Of a stretch of 64,000 nt of DNA, positions 28,181 to 64,000 are shown piece after piece. Location of the stretch: positions 62,001 to 126,000 of the forward strand of contig JAQWTV010000123.1 of the NCBI GenBank assembly GCA_029242545.1, in the 5' to 3' direction. This DNA comes from Roseibacillus sp. (GTDB lineage Bacteria > Verrucomicrobiota > Verrucomicrobiia > Verrucomicrobiales > Akkermansiaceae). Positions within the stretch are counted from its first letter, which is position 1, and each line of letters opens with the position of its first letter. The notes below the pieces were generated by a model, which was not told the origin of the DNA, did no database searches, and saw only the letters and a program-made list of their open reading frames with translations. Made by a program: the position numbers and the translations under genes.

Positions 28181-30757
28181 TCACTGACCGTCAAAGAGCT
28201 GGTGTTCTAGCTCTATCTCAAGACGCCGCCGACCCGCTTCCTCTCCCCATGGGCTGGCGCTGTTCTCGACGGTTCTCAGTATTTCAACGGATGCAGCCCA
28301 ACGGGGGAGGGCTCCCTTGGACAGAAGTTCGACTGCGGCAAAAGCGCATCGTGAAAAATAAAACCATTCCGTCGGGGTCTGGCCTTCCGGAAGGTTGTCT
28401 CTCTGCACGACATGATAGTAGGACTCTAGAGCCTCTCTTGGTTTCTTCAGATCTTCAAAAATCTGGCCCTTGAGAAAGAATAGGCGATTGCTTAAGGGGT
28501 AAGCTGTATCAGTCCGCAAAAGGATTCGATCGTAGATTTTAAGGGCTGCTATAAGGCTGTTGGCATCGCCAATTTCCCGGTGGGCTTCAGCAGCGAGCAT
28601 GTGGGCGTCAAGTAGGTCCGGAGCCTCTCCGGTGAGAAGGCTATTCAAGGTGTCCAAGGCTTTCTTGGGTTGCCGCTCGATCTGGCTACGGGCCAGGAGA
28701 AGTTTGGCATCCATATAAAGGGAACCTCTTTTTTCAATGATCGTATTGAGGAATACTTCCGCATCAGCGTCGGAATTATCCCCTCCCACTTTGAGGGCTG
28801 ATCTTGCGGCATAAAACAGAGCCGTCTCGGAAATTTCAGAGTTTTTCGTTGAGGAGGCAATATCCTGAAAACGAGTCTGAGCGTCGAGCATATCGCCATT
28901 GTGGAAATACGCCTCAGCTAGCTTGAAGCGAACGAAGGGCGTCATATGGCTTATCGGATCAGTTTTTAGAAACTGTTTTGATGTCTGGATCGCAAGCTCC
29001 CACTGCCCTGTCAGGCCGGCGATCCGAAGATGAAGATTAAGGTGTCGTAGTTTTTCTCGCGGCCTCAGAGAATTCGTGGGAAGAGATGCCACCTGGGCGG
29101 AAATCTTCTCCAGAGTTCGAGTGTCTCCCTGGTTTGAACGAACATACGATTCCAAGAGCGCGAGATGGGCTTCAGCGCTCCGCGGATGTCGGGGATGACG
29201 TTCGAGGAAGGTTTGTAGGAGGGTTTCCGCATCGCCGGATTGCAGAGACGCCTCATGAAGTGCTCTTTCCAGAAGAAGCGTATTGCGAACCTCCGAAGGG
29301 TCGAGTGCTTGGAGAAGGCCACGGAAACTGCTTTTATCACCAGCCCGCAACAGGCTGATCCCAGCATTCACAGCGCAGATATCGCCCTCTCCCGCGGGGA
29401 GAGACCTATGCGCTCGGAGGAATGCTGAGGACGCAGAGGTAAAGGCTCCGCCTTCAAAATAGAGCCTCGCCAGCAATCGTGCTGATTCTTGGCGTATGCC
29501 TGGCACCCCGGAGGAATTCTCGATTTTGGTAAGGGTCGCGATGGCGCTATCCTTTCTGCGGTCCGCAATTTGTAGTTTGGCCATCTCCAGGATGGAGCGA
29601 TCCCGAAAAGGATGAAGGGGCATGTTCGAGGCGATCCAGGCAAGCCTGCTTTCGGCCTGCCTGTTGGATGCGCTGGTATTTCGCTGAGCTAGGGAAAGAG
29701 CGTGGTAGAACAGGGCGTATCCGGTTCTGGTCTCTGTCCCCGGCGAGATAATAACCTCTGTTCCCGGAGAGGATTCCTCAGGTTGGGAACTGGCGGTGAA
29801 ATCGGCCCATCTACCCAGCTGCTCCTCCAAGCGCTTCCTGAGAGCCTCGTTTGAGGCCCAGCCGTGGAGCCGGTGGAAGGAGATCTCCAAGAGAGGGCTT
29901 CTTTGCCGGGCATCGATGAGGCTAACAAGTGCGGTGAAGGCCTCTTCAGGCTGTCCGGTGGCACTTAAGCACTCGGCCATAAATACCTGAGCACTGTGCC
30001 GTATCAAGGGTTGGATTGGATTTGGGTCTTCAACAATCTTGCGCAGGAGAGGAATGGCTCCCTGCTTGTCGCCAAGCGCAGTAAGTTGTGCTTTCAGATA
30101 ACTTATGTGGACTTCTTGTTGGCGATTAGAGGGCTTAATTTGATCGAGGATTTCACGAGCCTGAGACGCCTCCTCCTTCGCGATAAGGATTGTAGCTCGT
30201 AGGAGGTGGGCGTCCTGAGATAGTTGGCTTTGATCTTTTTTAGCGAAGCTTTTCTCCAGAAGGGAGTTAGCGCGGTCGGGATGCCCGAGAGCCGATAGGA
30301 TGTGAGCTCGTGAAAGAGAGCTCTGATCTCGAAGCTTTCTGTCCCCGGTGTCTTCTAGCTCTTTAAAGAGGCCTATAGCTTGAGTCAGTTCTCCGAGGAG
30401 GACGTAGGCGTGCGCTGACCAGAAAGTGGCAGAGGGATCGCCTCCCTCAAGGGACCCTTTCAGGTGTTCTAATGCCGAATTCGCATGATCTTTCCTCTTG
30501 TCATGGTGTTTCTGGAGGCGCCCCGTTCGAACCAAGGCTTCAGCCAATTTTATTGTTATCTGGGTCTGGGAGCGCGGATCGTCCTTGAAGTCTATCAAGG
30601 ATAACTCAAGTGGAGCGATAGCTAGATCAGGGAGATGATTTCGGAGAGCCGTTACGCCTTTGATGAACGAGGTATTCTTATCTAGTAACTGGCTCTCCTG
30701 ACCTAGCGCCGAAGCAAAGACGGCTAATCCGATAAGAGCTATTATTACACGGAGCAC
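28181..30757 (-). CDS. Large exported TPR-repeat protein
   Basis: An 858-residue protein starting at a GTG, with a signal peptide (VLRVIIALIGLAVFASALG) and then almost continuous tetratricopeptide-like helical repeats, for example SAHAYVLLGELTQAIGLFKELE, KLAEAYFHNGDMLDAQTRFQDI and LFFLKGQIFEDLKKPREALESYY. No enzymatic domain is visible. The repeats suggest a periplasmic scaffold for protein complexes. No partner is evident from the neighbours (an aminotransferase downstream, upp upstream). Confidence 0.85.
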   Translation of the reverse strand: MLRVIIALIGLAVFASALGQESQLLDKNTSFIKGVTALRNHLPDLAIAPLELSLIDFKDDPRSQTQITIKLAEALVRTGRLQKHHDKRKDHANSALEHLKGSLEGGDPSATFWSAHAYVLLGELTQAIGLFKELEDTGDRKLRDQSSLSRAHILSALGHPDRANSLLEKSFAKKDQSQLSQDAHLLRATILIAKEEASQAREILDQIKPSNRQQEVHISYLKAQLTALGDKQGAIPLLRKIVEDPNPIQPLIRHSAQVFMAECLSATGQPEEAFTALVSLIDARQRSPLLEISFHRLHGWASNEALRKRLEEQLGRWADFTASSQPEESSPGTEVIISPGTETRTGYALFYHALSLAQRNTSASNRQAESRLAWIASNMPLHPFRDRSILEMAKLQIADRRKDSAIATLTKIENSSGVPGIRQESARLLARLYFEGGAFTSASSAFLRAHRSLPAGEGDICAVNAGISLLRAGDKSSFRGLLQALDPSEVRNTLLLERALHEASLQSGDAETLLQTFLERHPRHPRSAEAHLALLESYVRSNQGDTRTLEKISAQVASLPTNSLRPREKLRHLNLHLRIAGLTGQWELAIQTSKQFLKTDPISHMTPFVRFKLAEAYFHNGDMLDAQTRFQDIASSTKNSEISETALFYAARSALKVGGDNSDADAEVFLNTIIEKRGSLYMDAKLLLARSQIERQPKKALDTLNSLLTGEAPDLLDAHMLAAEAHREIGDANSLIAALKIYDRILLRTDTAYPLSNRLFFLKGQIFEDLKKPREALESYYHVVQRDNLPEGQTPTEWFYFSRCAFAAVELLSKGALPRWAASVEILRTVENSASPWGEEAGRRRLEIELEHQLFDGQ

Positions 30758-57729: not shown

Positions 57730-59130
57730 TTACCAGTTGCCGCCGCTCCTTAGGGCCTCGAGTTCTTCATTGTAAATATTGAACTCGAGTCTCGAGAAGG
57801 CATTTAGCTTGAACTCTACGTTTCCAAAGGTCTGGCTGTAACCAGTCAAGGTGTCTTTCGAGAAGGCGTCGAGGCGGAAGGTGATCCGCCCTCCTTCCCT
57901 TAGCCATCCCCTAACATCTCCCTTTTTTCGAATGGGCTCTTCATAATCGCCTTCGGTAAGGTCAATGGTGCGCATCCGGTCAACAGGGATATTCATTTTA
58001 CAGAATGGGGTCTCTACGGCGAGCACTCCGTCTTTAATAAGTCCGACATTACCCACCACCGTGTCGCCGTTTTGTAGACGAATCTTCTGGCCTTCTAATT
58101 CATCCTCTTCGGGATCAGCCTCGAGCTCGGCAGTGTCAGGCAACTCGTCTTTCCAAGGGCTGACTCTGATGCGGCTAACCTTTACCTTGTAGAAGTCCTC
58201 CGAGATGAAGTGGAGCCAATTTCCAAAGCTTCCAGCCTTCGGGTTCTCATCAGTCCATACTTGTGCCTGTCTGCCATCGATATAAAGGGCGATGGTTCCT
58301 TCCTTTCGGTCAATATAGAATTCGAACCGAACACTTTCCTTTTCGGCCAGTTCCGGGATGTTCGCCTGGCCAACGATTTTTGAGCCTCCGGCTGCACGAT
58401 CGACCCAGCGTTTCCGCAGATAGACGAAGCGACGCTGGCAGACCAGATCATAACAATTGTCTGGCTGGGTGGTCGATCCCTTGTCCGAGAGAAGGAGAAC
58501 GCGGAACCGAAGGGAGCTTCTCCAGGCGAGATCGAACTGGATGCGGCAGCGGTCAGGGGTCTTTATTTCCCTCGCGATTCCAGCACCCTTGTTGGATGAG
58601 AGGGATCCTCCGTTGAGACTCCAAGAGTCTTTCTCGCCTTCGATGATCCATGAGTCAAAGTCCTCAGGCCCTGAGTAGACGGTCTGGTTGGCCCTTTGGA
58701 TCTCCAGATCAGAGGCCATGGTTCGACGGATTTTAAGAGGACCTGCATACCATGTCTGAAGGGTAACATGTTCCTCGTCCAGAGCATCAAGCTGGCCGCG
58801 CAGGGTGTCTCCGTTGGTAAGAAGTAGGAGTGCTTGGTGTTCCCCCTCATCTTTTGGCGAGAGTCCTCCCTCCAGGCGCATTTCCAGCAGAGAGGAGGGC
58901 TTGACTGGGATAGGCTGATGGAGGAATGGAGCGTTCCAGCGGAGATTCCCATCCTCATCGATTCCCTCAGGAGTGCCGCTGACCTTGTCCTCGTTGGCAA
59001 AGGTGAGGAAGCCCTGGACTGAAGTGAGCTCTGCTGGGAGAGCGGCATTCCCATTGCCTTCTTCCCCGGGTTGCTGCTGTCCAATTACGATCGCAGGAAA
59101 CAGGAGGATTAGTAGGAGAGACTTCTTCAT
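57730..59130 (-). CDS. Exported protein with 2+LamG-like+2 beta-module layout (paralogue 3)
   Basis: A 466-residue protein with a signal peptide (MKKSLLLILLFPAIVIG). It has a repeated ~45-residue beta module at about 38-86, 99-145, 347-392 and 407-452; clear copies read LLLLTNGDTLRGQLDALDEEH and IRLQNGDTVVGNVGLIKDG. Between the pairs, residues 165-325 look like a LamG/concanavalin-type jelly roll (FYIDRKEGTIALYIDGRQ). No catalytic residues are evident. It is the last gene of the operon and overlaps its upstream paralogue by four bases (ATGA, 59127-59130). The function is unknown; binding of a glycan or envelope component is inference. Confidence 0.85.
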   Translation of the reverse strand: MKKSLLLILLFPAIVIGQQQPGEEGNGNAALPAELTSVQGFLTFANEDKVSGTPEGIDEDGNLRWNAPFLHQPIPVKPSSLLEMRLEGGLSPKDEGEHQALLLLTNGDTLRGQLDALDEEHVTLQTWYAGPLKIRRTMASDLEIQRANQTVYSGPEDFDSWIIEGEKDSWSLNGGSLSSNKGAGIAREIKTPDRCRIQFDLAWRSSLRFRVLLLSDKGSTTQPDNCYDLVCQRRFVYLRKRWVDRAAGGSKIVGQANIPELAEKESVRFEFYIDRKEGTIALYIDGRQAQVWTDENPKAGSFGNWLHFISEDFYKVKVSRIRVSPWKDELPDTAELEADPEEDELEGQKIRLQNGDTVVGNVGLIKDGVLAVETPFCKMNIPVDRMRTIDLTEGDYEEPIRKKGDVRGWLREGGRITFRLDAFSKDTLTGYSQTFGNVEFKLNAFSRLEFNIYNEELEALRSGGNW

Positions 59131-60452
59131 GATCCGTTCTTCTGAGGTGCCTCAATCGCAAGTCGCTTGAGGGTGTTTCGGTCGAGCGTTAATTTTCCAA
59201 GAAGCGGGTGGGTTGCCTCTATAGAGGAGTCTTTCATCTCGAGGGCGGTGCATTGAAGGGATCCTCCACCGGTGAGAGATAGAGCAACTGGGGCCTGGCC
59301 CTCGGGGAGTTGTAAAGGATGCTTGAAGTAGAGGGCGGAAATTCTCGAGGTTTGAATGTTAAGGGGTTGATCGTTGAAGGGACTTTCAAAAATGATGCTA
59401 TCACCCTGGTCGCTGGCTTGGAGTTGAAGTGCAGATCCGCTAAGATGCTGGCCCTCTACGTCGACCAGTCCGTCGGTCTTGGGGTCTTCATGGCCTTCAT
59501 CGCGCCGTAGTTCAGTGACTGCGTCCCACTCATAGATTTCAAGCTTGCTGACGATGTTCTTCAGGTCTCCGCCAGCTTGACTCTGAAGCATGATCCCTGT
59601 GCCTGTGGGGAAGGTGTCGATGGGGTCAGGCGTTCTTTGGATCTTCTCGCTGTTCAGATAGAGATAGATCTGCCTGCTGTCCCGGTTGACTCGTAACTCG
59701 ACGTCTATTCCACGGCCGGGGTATTCGCGGGGCTTCTGATGTGACTGCGCGAGGGTATGCCAGCGGCGGCCGCCCTCGGTGGTTTGTCTTTTCAGCTGTG
59801 ATCCCATTGAGTTGACCTCAAAGTAGTATCTATCCGCATTCCCGGTCCTCTTCAGGAAGTCGTCACAGAAGTAGATTCGAAAGTTGGGATCGTTTTCCCA
59901 ATCCAATCTGAATCGCAGGATGAATTGCCGGGGGAGAACGTTTTCCGCAGCAATTGTGCCGCTCGTGTTGCAGGTGAGACTGCCGTTCTCCCACTCCCAG
60001 TCATCATTATCACTCCATTCGGTAATGGGCTTTGGTCCCGAGTAGACGAGTTTTTGCGGGGTGACGCCAAAGTCGATGGAGTGAACGTGGTCGCGGGGAA
60101 TTGTCAGCTCATTAGCATAGCCGGTGAGGAAGCTGACTTCTTTACTGTCGAGATTTTGCAGGGTGCCGGGGAGGATGTCCCCATTTACGAGATGGAGAAG
60201 CTGAGGAGCTTTTTGAGAATTTGCGTTGTCGTTGCGGAAGCTGATCGAGCTGAGGGACTGAGCCCTGAGGTGTATGTGTTGATCACTAAAGTCCGAATCA
60301 ACCACCACTTTATCGTTCCCCTCGATAGCGAGAACCTTGCCGCTGAGTCGGCTCCCATCATTGAGTTCGAGGGTGTCCTCCGTGGGCTCCGCCGGAACTA
60401 CAACGAGCACGCACAGCATGGCTATGCCGGTAAGAATGGGGGTTTTGGTCAT
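59127..60452 (-). CDS. Exported protein with 2+LamG-like+2 beta-module layout (paralogue 2)
   Basis: I choose the ATG at 60452, which overlaps the stop of the upstream gene as TAATG; an ATG six codons earlier is possible. The 441-residue product has a signal peptide (MTKTPILTGIAMLCVLVVVPAEP), beta modules at about 26-73 (LELNDGSRLSGKVLAIEG), 84-128 (LLHLVNGDILPGTLQNLDSKE), 328-376 and 389-434, and a central LamG-like region (about 150-310, VNRDSRQIYLYLNSEKIQ). It shares the layout of both neighbours at low sequence identity. Unknown function. Confidence 0.85.
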   Translation of the reverse strand: MTKTPILTGIAMLCVLVVVPAEPTEDTLELNDGSRLSGKVLAIEGNDKVVVDSDFSDQHIHLRAQSLSSISFRNDNANSQKAPQLLHLVNGDILPGTLQNLDSKEVSFLTGYANELTIPRDHVHSIDFGVTPQKLVYSGPKPITEWSDNDDWEWENGSLTCNTSGTIAAENVLPRQFILRFRLDWENDPNFRIYFCDDFLKRTGNADRYYFEVNSMGSQLKRQTTEGGRRWHTLAQSHQKPREYPGRGIDVELRVNRDSRQIYLYLNSEKIQRTPDPIDTFPTGTGIMLQSQAGGDLKNIVSKLEIYEWDAVTELRRDEGHEDPKTDGLVDVEGQHLSGSALQLQASDQGDSIIFESPFNDQPLNIQTSRISALYFKHPLQLPEGQAPVALSLTGGGSLQCTALEMKDSSIEATHPLLGKLTLDRNTLKRLAIEAPQKNGS

Positions 60453-62017
60453 TAGTAGTCGTCGTCCCATGAATCCAAAATACTCGATCCGAATGAGAAT
60501 TCCATTAGACCGGTATAGCGGAGGTTAAGGTTGATTTCCCCGAGGGCGGGGTGGCGGGCCTTAAGGGTGTCGGAATTTGCTTTAAGGGGAAGAACTGTGA
60601 GGCGGCCGTGAGGCTGGAGGAGCAGGCGTATCCTCTGTCGACTAGCCCAGTCTTCATCCTCCTCTGTCCGGCTAGACTCGGCCAGACGTATTTCCTGGAT
60701 CTCGTGAGCGGGAACCTTCATCTCGGCGTAGGTTCCCTTAATTAAAAACTGGCCCTCCTTGAGTGATTCCAGTTTGCCGGAGAATCGATCGGTCCCGTTG
60801 GTGAGCAGAACCACATCCCGGTCTTCAGCCTCCATGCTTTGCGCGCTATCCATCATGCCGTTCCAGCCTGTCACGAGGACGTCTGAAATGCGAAGGCGAG
60901 CGGAGGAATTCTGTGAGGCAAAGGCGAGGTGGGATCCGCTGCCGACGTATCCTTGTCGGTCGGTCCATTGACTTACGAACCTCCCATTGGCAAAGAGGGC
61001 TATTGTGCCGGCTGTCCGGTCACAACGAATCTCAAACTCCGCTTGACCCGCTTCATCAAGACGCAGGTTGGCACTTGAATTGGAAAGGCGATCGATGTCG
61101 GCATTTCCGTCTTCAGTAAAGTCACACCGGTAAATCTGAGCATAATTGGAATAGATGGTGAGGACGTAGCTGTGTCCGTAGGTATAGGCAAATCCTTCCT
61201 TGAATTTTGAGCCAGCATTCGGGGCTAACTTACGCTTTTCCTCTGCTTCTTTTTCACCCCCTTCTTCTTTCTTGGCTTGATCTGGCCGCTCCATGGTTGC
61301 GTGGAATGCGATCGCTGTATTCAGTCGATTACGCCATGCGAGGGTGAAGCGGATACGAGAACGATCTCCGGCATTGGTATCTACTGCGATAGGGAGTTGC
61401 CCGTTACTATAGTAGGCGCCACCACTGAAGACCCACGGATCCTCTTGAGGTTCCTGTTCCTCTGGATCCTCGTTTTGTTCCTCAGGTTGCTCTTCTGGAT
61501 TGTCGGTAACAGGGGCATCCGGAGGGGTGATGACACTCCACTCGCCATCGCTGAACGGACCAATATATTGGACGTGACCACCATGTGGAGATGGTGCGAT
61601 CTGGCTGACAAATTCCCGAGGAATGGATACTCGTCCTGCGAATTCAGTGTCAATCTCGAGCCTTTCCGGGTCGAGGCTTACGAGTGTTCCAGGGATTCTG
61701 TCGCCGTCAGCGAGTTGAACGAAGGAGGGGCTGCGGAGGTTTTTGCGGGCACGGCCCCCGTTGAAGGACAGCCGCCGAATCTTATCGGTGCGAAGGGTGA
61801 TAGGTTCGGCTGCCTCCGAATGAAGCCAACGTAGTTCTCCGTCACCGAGGCCAAGGAAGGAGCCATGGAGGGAATCTCCATTACGAAACCTGAGAAGGTC
61901 TTCCGGCTCGCTTGGATTTTCTCCGAGCAATGAGGATGAGAGGGCCACTCCCAAGGCGAAGATGGCCTTGGTTATCCGAGGAGGGGAGCCGCACTCCATT
62001 GGGGGGCTACTTCTCAT
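60452..62017 (-). CDS. Exported protein with 2+LamG-like+2 beta-module layout (paralogue 1)
   Basis: A 521-residue protein, the longest of the three paralogues. A signal segment (about 14-33) is followed by beta modules at about 40-86 (LLRFRNGDSLHGSFLGLGDGE), 97-141 (FVQLADGDRIPGTLVSLDPER), 401-446 (LLTNGTDRFSGKLESLKEGQ) and 461-508. The central LamG-like region (about 195-385, CDRTAGTIALFANGRFVSQW) has an acidic Glu/Pro/Gln insert before it (about 173-193) and a Lys/Glu-rich insert within it (245-264). Its start overlaps the toroid gene by 11 bases; an ATG six codons in is an alternative. Confidence 0.85.
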   Translation of the reverse strand: MRSSPPMECGSPPRITKAIFALGVALSSSLLGENPSEPEDLLRFRNGDSLHGSFLGLGDGELRWLHSEAAEPITLRTDKIRRLSFNGGRARKNLRSPSFVQLADGDRIPGTLVSLDPERLEIDTEFAGRVSIPREFVSQIAPSPHGGHVQYIGPFSDGEWSVITPPDAPVTDNPEEQPEEQNEDPEEQEPQEDPWVFSGGAYYSNGQLPIAVDTNAGDRSRIRFTLAWRNRLNTAIAFHATMERPDQAKKEEGGEKEAEEKRKLAPNAGSKFKEGFAYTYGHSYVLTIYSNYAQIYRCDFTEDGNADIDRLSNSSANLRLDEAGQAEFEIRCDRTAGTIALFANGRFVSQWTDRQGYVGSGSHLAFASQNSSARLRISDVLVTGWNGMMDSAQSMEAEDRDVVLLTNGTDRFSGKLESLKEGQFLIKGTYAEMKVPAHEIQEIRLAESSRTEEDEDWASRQRIRLLLQPHGRLTVLPLKANSDTLKARHPALGEINLNLRYTGLMEFSFGSSILDSWDDDY

Positions 62018-62999
62018 AAATTGGCAGAAACCGATAGTTCAGGGCCATCGATAGCAGGGCTCCTGAGGTGCTGAAAGCTGCGCCCTTGTTTCCTGGCCAG
62101 CTCCCATCGCGGGCTTGCAGGGTGGAAAGATACCGGATGTTCTTTGAGTTCCACTCCTCCCATACCTGTTCATCAGCGTGGAAAAGGGCCTGGGACATAT
62201 AATATTCGAAATAGTAGGGATAAAAACGATCGCGATAGTTGAGCCGTTTGCCAAGGTATCCGAGGCTGGCTTTGTAGCCTTTGTTGTCCTTCTCCTTAGC
62301 GAGGGCCAGGCAAAGTGAACCGATTGCGGTGAGAGTTGGTTTTCCGCTTCCAGCCGAAGTGTATCCGTAACCGCCGTCTGATGCGCGGCATCTCTTCATG
62401 AAGGCATGACCTTTCTTAAGCGCATCCTCGGGAACTGGGATGCCAGCATTTCTGGCCGCGTATAAAGCCACCATTTGTGCGCCGGTTACGGTGGTATCAG
62501 CATCTTGGCTGTCGGGAGTATATCTCCACGCGCCCCGGCTGTTACGTTCCTGCGCACTTAGGATCAGGTCAACCGCTCCTTTGAGTGCGAGGGCCAGCTT
62601 GTCGTCCTTCAGGACTCCGTATGCCTCGGCCAGAGCGAGGGTTGCGAAGCCGTGATTGTACATGCTCGATCCGATATAGCCGTTCGTCTCATTCTGGTTC
62701 TCTAGAATAAAGCTGATGCCCCCACGAATATTTCGCGCATAGGGCCCGTGATTAGGGTCCTCACCGTGGGCGAGGAACGCCATCACACATAGTCCAACCA
62801 CTCCCGGCTCACTGCCGTTCCTATCCGGCCAATTGCCATTTTCTGTCTGGCTTTCCGCAAGATAGCGCAGCCCCTTGATATACATCTGGTCAACCTGGGG
62901 GGGGATGGGGTCGTCCTGCCTGCGGGGTAACGCCTGAGAGCGCCCGACCAGGGACGTTACCAGTAAAGCTGCTGAGACAAGCGGTAAAAACAGTCTCAT
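62007..62999 (-). CDS. Exported alpha/alpha-toroid protein (prenyltransferase/squalene-oxidase-like repeats)
   Basis: A 330-residue protein with a signal peptide (MRLFLPLVSAALLVTSLVG). The body is built of helix-pair repeats with the QxxxGxW pattern: AESQTENGNWPDRNG, LSAQERNSRGAWRYT, MKRCRASDGGYGYTS and LSTLQARDGSWPGN. This is the alpha/alpha toroid seen in terpene cyclases and prenyltransferases, but export and lack of the DxDD or DCTAE acid motifs argue against cyclase activity. It may be a binding or scaffold domain. It starts five bases after the preceding gene and is coupled to the paralogue run. Confidence 0.85.
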   Translation of the reverse strand: MRLFLPLVSAALLVTSLVGRSQALPRRQDDPIPPQVDQMYIKGLRYLAESQTENGNWPDRNGSEPGVVGLCVMAFLAHGEDPNHGPYARNIRGGISFILENQNETNGYIGSSMYNHGFATLALAEAYGVLKDDKLALALKGAVDLILSAQERNSRGAWRYTPDSQDADTTVTGAQMVALYAARNAGIPVPEDALKKGHAFMKRCRASDGGYGYTSAGSGKPTLTAIGSLCLALAKEKDNKGYKASLGYLGKRLNYRDRFYPYYFEYYMSQALFHADEQVWEEWNSKNIRYLSTLQARDGSWPGNKGAAFSTSGALLSMALNYRFLPIYEK

Positions 63000-63004
63000 C
63001 GCAT

Positions 63005-63268
63005 TCAGCGCACCTTATTGTAGGAGTCGAGAGCCTTTTGGAACTCAGGTGGGAGGTAAGAGCCTGATTTTCCTGCTTTTTTCCCGATAGTACGCTCCTC
63101 TTTCTTGCCTTTGCCAGCATCAGTGAACTCCTTGTTAGGGGAGTCAGAGTCACCCTCTTGGCCTTCGCCCGCCTGTTCTCCGGGCTGTCCTTTTTGCTCT
63201 CCCTGACCTTGTCCGGGAGTTTTGCCCATCATGCGCTGCATCATATCGAGCATGGCACCCATGCTCAT
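63005..63268 (-). CDS. 3' part of an interrupted gene: Met/Gln/Gly/Lys-rich protein without signal peptide
   Basis: An 87-residue frame starting MSMGAMLDMMQRMMGKTPGQ, then Gly/Gln/Asp-rich low-complexity sequence, and a conserved-looking end SGSYLPPEFQKALDSYNKVR. It lies in the same frame as the upstream 139-residue gene, separated only by TGA and four sense codons (Pro-Asp-Ser-Gly). It has no signal peptide although all neighbours are exported. GGA directly abuts the first ATG and would serve the second ATG (two codons on) better. Most likely it is the C-terminal half of one gene, read through, restarted, or cut by a mutation. Confidence 0.6.
   Translation of the reverse strand: MSMGAMLDMMQRMMGKTPGQGQGEQKGQPGEQAGEGQEGDSDSPNKEFTDAGKGKKEERTIGKKAGKSGSYLPPEFQKALDSYNKVR
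63248..63266 (-). other. Perfect 8-bp hairpin just after an in-frame TGA
   Basis: On the minus strand GAGCATGG-GTG-CCATGCTC forms a perfect 8-bp stem with a 3-base loop. It begins 14 bases after the in-frame TGA at 63283-63281 and touches the candidate downstream start codon (63268-63266). The distance from the TGA to the loop is 22 bases and the loop starts with G, which meets the loose description of bacterial SECIS elements, but it could equally be a coupling or start-masking structure, or chance. Confidence 0.5.
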
Positions 63269-63280
63269 TCCACTGTCTGG

Positions 63281-63700
63281 TCATGTGCCGCCACTTTGCT
63301 GTGAACGCTGTTTGGCGGCTTCAAAAATCTTTTCTATGATTTCGGTTTCTGCAGCGATGGTCGGTCCGCCGGTATCGGTTTCATCGAGTGAATCGATCAC
63401 CTCTGCCATGACCTCTTCGACCTCTTCCAGAAGGGATATCAGTTTTTCGTCGGTCTGCTCCTCAATCAGGTCCTGAACATCGGCAGCAAGTTCGTCCTGT
63501 TCTCCGGCGAGGTTCTGCGAGCCTTCACGATGTTTTCCGGCAGCCTTTTTCTGGGACTCCGTGACCGGATCAGGATAGATGATCTCAGGGAGCTCGATTG
63601 CGAGCTTGGTGTCTGGCGGATCCTGCGCTTTCTGTGAAAGCGCGGGGACTGTCAGAAAGAGGAGCGCTCCAACCGCGAGGAGGAGAATATTGTTCTTCAT
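63281..63700 (-). CDS. 5' part of an interrupted gene: exported acidic helical protein
   Basis: A 139-residue frame with a signal peptide (MKNNILLLAVGALLFLTVPALS) followed by a strongly acidic, helix-rich region (LAADVQDLIEEQTDEKLISLLEEVEEVMAEVIDSLDETDTGG) and EKIFEAAKQRSQQSGGT before TGA. The downstream 87-residue frame continues in phase after five codons. Replacing TGA by GGA (one base) would give GGTGPDSGMSMGAML and a single exported protein of about 231 residues. Whether the stop is real, read through, or an assembly error cannot be told here. Confidence 0.65.
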   Translation of the reverse strand: MKNNILLLAVGALLFLTVPALSQKAQDPPDTKLAIELPEIIYPDPVTESQKKAAGKHREGSQNLAGEQDELAADVQDLIEEQTDEKLISLLEEVEEVMAEVIDSLDETDTGGPTIAAETEIIEKIFEAAKQRSQQSGGT

Positions 63701-63761: not shown

Positions 63762-64000
63762 CTACTCTGAAAGATCCTGCAGATGAAGAGTTCGCCGAAG
63801 TTGTTCGAGGGCCCTCGTCCGGGCCCGGATGTCCTGTTCAGTCTGGATCATCGCCATGACTTTCAGCATAAACTCAAAATCATTGTCGTCTAGAGAAGGC
63901 TCCTGACCTTCACCCCCGCCGCCGCCGCCGGCCCCGGAAGGGTCTTCAGGAGGATCAAGGATATCGGCCCATGCCTTCAGCTGGTCAGCCCACTTTTTCG
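63762..64000 (-). CDS. C-terminal end of a larger protein (5' part beyond the window)
   Basis: An open minus-strand frame enters from the right edge and ends at TAG (63764-63762); about 78 residues are visible. It reads KKWADQLKAWADILDPPEDP, a six-glycine run, then the helical end NDFEFMLKVMAMIQTEQDIR and RARTRALEQLRRTLHLQDLSE. The charged helical end suggests a large coiled-coil or membrane protein as found upstream of such exported-protein clusters in this phylum, but I cannot name the family from the tail. It lies 61 bases upstream of the next gene, probably in the same operon. Confidence 0.7.
   Translation of the reverse strand, partial: KKWADQLKAWADILDPPEDPSGAGGGGGGEGQEPSLDDNDFEFMLKVMAMIQTEQDIRARTRALEQLRRTLHLQDLSE

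Follow-up and report, generated by a model that had tools for sequence, protein, structure and literature searches.

A family of exported Akkermansiaceae proteins with an in-frame UGA predicted to encode selenocysteine

In the eukaryotic selenoproteins SELENOS and SELENOK, selenocysteine (Sec) lies in a flexible Gly-rich stretch near the C terminus and the SECIS is of the eukaryotic type, and SelL-type proteins are diselenide proteins. A published inventory includes bacterial selenoproteins with several Sec residues in UxxU or UxxxxU motifs, and its bSECIS model sets a loop of 3 to 9 nt with a G within the first two positions (usually G[G|U]N), a stem of 4 to 16 bp, a spacing of 16 to 37 nt from the UGA, and an MFE of at most -7.5 (PMC13188914). 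A 2025 tool paper states that a Cys homologue now seems to exist for every known selenoprotein and that a candidate lacking one may be filtered out (PMC12013277). The genome studied here has a known system of its own, a Sec-containing SelD in which the in-frame UGA is followed by a triloop hairpin starting with GU (GCGCAG-GUU-CUGCGC).

In a 64,000-nucleotide stretch of a Roseibacillus sp. contig (the window), the minus-strand gene at 63005..63700 very probably encodes another selenoprotein, with Sec at the UGA at 63283-63281. Like selD, it has the UGA and, behind it, a GU-starting triloop hairpin, and one SelB and one tRNA-Sec would serve both genes. However, SelD is an unrelated protein, an enzyme of known function with Cys homologues, and its UGA-to-loop distance is 33 nt instead of 22 nt. 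The multi-Sec bacterial selenoproteins (PMC13188914) are resembled by the homologues from genomes G396 (UGGU), G183 (UKSNU), and many members of genus g9 (Ux5U), whose two predicted Sec residues may, by analogy, form a diselenide. The family differs from them in that searches detected neither a thioredoxin-like nor any other known family and in that the window protein has a single Sec. As in SELENOS and SELENOK, this Sec would sit in a flexible Gly-rich stretch with no folded redox site, here away from the C terminus; we know of no sequence relation between those proteins and ours. The initial annotation had set selenocysteine aside for want of an evident role, and the evidence now supports it. 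This evidence comprises the conserved TGA, the second TGAs found in some relatives, the whole-codon spacing, the GGT codon in the hairpin loop, the fit to the bSECIS model, the likeness of the loop to that of selD, the presence of the machinery, and the co-occurrence with SelB. As we envisage it, SelB carrying Sec-tRNA-Sec would bind the GU-loop hairpin 3' of the UGA, Sec would be inserted, and the ribosome would proceed for 91 residues and terminate at a second TGA, while part of the ribosomes would presumably halt at the UGA, so that an exported short form of 139 residues would accompany the 231-residue one.

The first open frame (63700..63281, minus strand) codes for 139 residues and is ended by the TGA at 63283-63281, behind which come CCA GAC AGT GGA and then an ATG (63268) with 87 residues. 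Both halves are in a single phase up to the terminal TGA at 63007-63005, so that translation past the UGA adds 91 residues and gives a protein of 231 with Sec as residue 140, along which homologues align full-length in one frame. The signal-peptide-like N terminus of about 23 residues (63632..63700, starting MKNNILLLAVGALLFLTVPALSQ) is shared by homologues with similar hydrophobic starts, and the second half has none. These features, namely the two same-phase frames of 139 and 87 residues with TGA and four sense codons between them, the signal peptide on the first frame only, and a perfect hairpin of 8 bp and 3 nt placed 14 nt past the TGA, had been read from the DNA in the initial annotation and were confirmed to the base. 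The gene order is conserved on the same strand: upstream lies the C terminus of a membrane/coiled-coil protein of more than 900 residues that runs beyond the window (63762..64000; 76 of 80 loci), and downstream a squalene-hopene-cyclase-like alpha-toroid protein of 330 residues (62007..62999, PF13243, E value of 8.8e-8; 79 of 80 loci). Downstream of the alpha-toroid gene, at 57730-62017 on the minus strand, there are three consecutive exported proteins of 447 to 521 residues, alike in layout, for which no Pfam family was matched.

A search of 39 related genomes, using the read-through protein with X at the stop as the query, recovered TGA at the same site in 13 of the 13 Roseibacillus genomes having the gene, with relatives 65 to 96% identical, and also in G022, of another genus. 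We then used a profile search with follow-up on 260 genomes of the family Akkermansiaceae, 179 of which have the gene. The in-frame UGA was present in 45 of these, 13 from Roseibacillus (g1) and 32 from three other genera (21 from g9, 4 from g10, and 7 from g27). In a survey of distinct homologous segments, some of them near-duplicates from one genome, 47 had the UGA and 69 lacked it, and TAA or TAG was never found at the site. The UGA-less homologues are single proteins. By standard annotation rules the gene appears interrupted, which is what a nonsense mutation, a pseudogene, or an assembly error would produce, and the first and third had been put forward initially. The same TGA with an intact downstream frame in 45 genomes from independent projects refutes this explanation, whose probability we consider practically nil. 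Equally negligible is an altered code with UGA read as Trp or Gly, for which nothing speaks beyond the open frame, and which is rejected by the terminal stop of the gene being itself a TGA. Rather than a broken gene, 63005..63700 is almost certainly an intact one whose in-frame stop codon is decoded as selenocysteine.

Two in-frame TGAs are found in 13 of the 45 genomes, 11 from g9 (G270, G279, G283, G284, G290, G291, G292, G405, G407, G410, and G413) and two from g10 (G183 and G396), and they are kept while adjacent codons vary freely. The g9 sequence reads KSQ-U-PSAGG-U-PSRQKSMGAM, its second U aligning with that of Roseibacillus; in G414 the second TGA is replaced by TCA. Had translation ended at the first UGA, the second would have been free to drift, and its conservation thus points to decoding through the first; among the sequence arguments for decoding through the UGA we consider this one the strongest. 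It also bears on the proposal of two coupled cistrons, in which the first would end at the UGA and translation re-initiate at ATG 63268 or at an ATG within the hairpin. The ATG at 63268 is indeed only 15 bases from the stop codon and both halves are conserved. However, a second UGA conserved past the first would be pointless, the stop is invariably UGA, the second half lacks a signal peptide, and the UGA-less homologues are single proteins. Moreover, the phase is held across in-frame indels, the UGA and the SMG motif being separated by a whole number of codons in every case (6, 8, 9, 10, or 12), and the other genera have no counterpart of ATG 63268, which leaves only the ATG in the stem. Coupled re-initiation, one of the options initially offered, is therefore disfavored and in our view improbable.

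The hairpin, GAGCATGG-GTG-CCATGCTC, lies at 63266-63248 on the minus strand, and its core GCATGGGTNCCATGCT (N being G, T, or C) is retained in all the UGA genes read. With 8 bp, a GUG loop, a UGA-to-loop distance of 22 nt, which is the same in every gene with a second-type UGA, and -14.5 kcal/mol, it passes every constraint of the published bSECIS model (PMC13188914), bearing out the loose SECIS geometry remarked upon earlier; Rfam gave no SECIS match for it. The Gly codon in the loop was GGT in 49 of 49 rows (near-duplicates included), compared to 16% of the Gly codons elsewhere in these genes. In the only UGA-less gene retaining the peptide SMGAM (G404, L148) this codon is GGA and the loop U is gone. 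Covariation rests on the outermost stem pair only (G-C in 7 of 15 distinct rows, A-U in 5, and unpaired in two), the remainder of the stem being nearly invariant. Among nine TGA-separated frame pairs of similar size in the window, this pair had the longest SECIS-like stem, with one shadow-frame pair tying at 8 bp. When the same peptide was synonymously re-coded, an equal stem arose in roughly 4 to 35% of trials, mostly 10 to 20%, because the peptide SMGAM favors a palindrome. This hairpin stability, only modestly unusual for its peptide, weighs against the selenocysteine reading; by itself the hairpin is indecisive, and what decides is that 45 genomes conserve the TGA together with the hairpin. 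The tying pair, with its TGA and hairpin at 29370 (minus strand), falls in a shadow frame of an 858-residue TPR-like ORF (28181-30757) and was discarded as a chance occurrence.

The machinery expected for Sec insertion, of which selA, selB, and selC had initially been listed as genes to look for, was found in the same genome: SelA (495 bits), SelB above the cutoff (G000:C65), SelD of the Sec type (G000:C5), and a partly assembled tRNA-Sec. The RF01852 scan (81 candidates scored per genome) missed the latter, cut by the end of its contig, and a DNA query recovered its first 33 nt with 100% identity (G000:C68:1-33, L180); congeners have a full tRNA-SeC (tca) according to ARAGORN. Contig ends also cut tRNA-Sec in other Roseibacillus MAGs (for instance, G004:C166:1223-1262), and in G002 the full copy is accompanied, about 1.9 kb away, by a partial second one (nt 1 to 52; G002:C9:34527-34578); a mobile element may integrate at the tRNA-Sec locus.

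SelB was present in 69 of the 260 family genomes, and it was detected in 42 of the 45 UGA-bearing genomes versus 19 of the 133 with a UGA-less gene (114 without it), excluding one partial match (G285). The three UGA genomes without detected SelB are 80 to 88% complete. The association is strong (Fisher p of about 2e-22), with a significance overstated by the nonindependence of relatives. Genera g3, g7, g23, and g11 lack both SelB and the UGA, as does G261 inside the UGA-bearing g10. In g27, selB lies about 4 to 6 kb from the gene on one contig (G266:C197, G241:C4, G299:C205, and G174:C1), and G299 and G174 have a gene copy without UGA despite the nearby selB. A UGA followed by C is a leaky stop context, and C follows the UGA in many members, as would suit a stop read by an ordinary near-cognate tRNA to give two forms of the exported protein with no selenocysteine. 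Yet the base after the UGA varies (C, G, or A), the UGA genes are confined to SelB lineages and missing from more than 110 SelB-less genomes, and a GU-loop hairpin stands at SECIS distance, all of which makes simple leakiness very unlikely.

Further points against selenocysteine are the incompletely assembled tRNA-Sec of the same genome, the three UGA genomes without detected SelB, and the rarity of Cys at the site in UGA-less homologues, unlike nearly all known selenoproteins. In the UGA-less homologues the linker at this position is variable and rich in Gln, Ser, and Gly, and GGA, once suggested as the codon that would restore the protein, is no evident ancestral state. Cys occurs in the linker of two of about 70 UGA-less segments (AKAKQQQCKGG in L231 and SGGKCESSS in L235), each Cys lying close to a different one of the two Sec positions, a hint that a thiol can replace Sec. 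Among UGA genes, Cys accompanies Sec only in the UPSC of G022 and G186; together with the UGGU of G396, these are the only cases with a second Sec or Cys three residues away. The window protein reads GGTUPDSG, with no Cys and neither UxxU nor UxxC. Synonymous and nonsynonymous counts were uninformative, the 12- to 15-nt linkers being too variable. With the linker left out of the protein tree, the UGA trait takes 10 changes, at least five of them forced by well-supported branches, and by this measure it has been repeatedly gained or lost.

The first-type UGA stands 40 nt from the SECIS hairpin in the majority of two-UGA genes and also in three genes that retain this UGA only. Genes with this arrangement have an extra hairpin in between, varied in sequence (GCCGGC/GCCGGC, GTTGAC/GTCAAC, and others) and more stable than the matching stretch of genes having only the second UGA (mean z of -2.6 versus -0.9; Mann-Whitney p of 0.002, indicative only since the sequences are related). 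Its loops follow the SelB rule inconsistently, and for this reason we suggest that it shortens the path from the first UGA to a shared SECIS; the alternative is a separate SECIS for the first UGA. It is conceivable, if somewhat short of an even chance, that the family derives from non-cysteine ancestors, that its variable Gln/Ser/Gly linker acquired and lost Sec on several occasions, and that both UGAs share a single GU-loop SECIS in two genera, the farther one (40 nt) drawn in by the hairpin between.

Searches of the protein against Pfam and NCBIfam, the latter with many selenoprotein models, gave nothing near the cutoff; PDB held no relative, and our searches of an available set of papers found no description of the family. 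We predict a new exported selenoprotein family of the Akkermansiaceae. An AlphaFold model of low confidence (mean pLDDT of 60.7, pTM of 0.29) has a helical domain (48-135), the Sec (140) in the loop that follows it, a Met-rich helix (147-157), and a Gly-rich tail that is disordered and ends in a short helix. The Sec is predicted to lie in a Gly/Ser-rich linker between the helical domain and the Met-rich helix. With motifs so varied (U alone, UxxU, UxxC, UxxxU, and Ux5U), a rigid enzyme active site would be a poorer fit than a role in a diselenide, in a selenenylsulfide, or as a metal ligand. Tentatively, and with rather more doubt than confidence, we propose that the flexible linker carries an extracytoplasmic site that is redox active or binds metal, acting together with the two conserved neighbors, with which the gene makes up a conserved cassette of three genes.

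Standard annotation pipelines will label such UGA genes as truncated or broken. Selenoprotein discovery leans heavily on Sec/Cys pairs, and methods of this kind would miss the family. Its members form a natural series (zero, one, or two Sec, varied spacings, with or without SelB) for testing how Sec originates where there was no Cys precursor, and whether two UGAs can share a single SECIS. The Akkermansiaceae also gain an exported predicted selenoprotein with no known fold.
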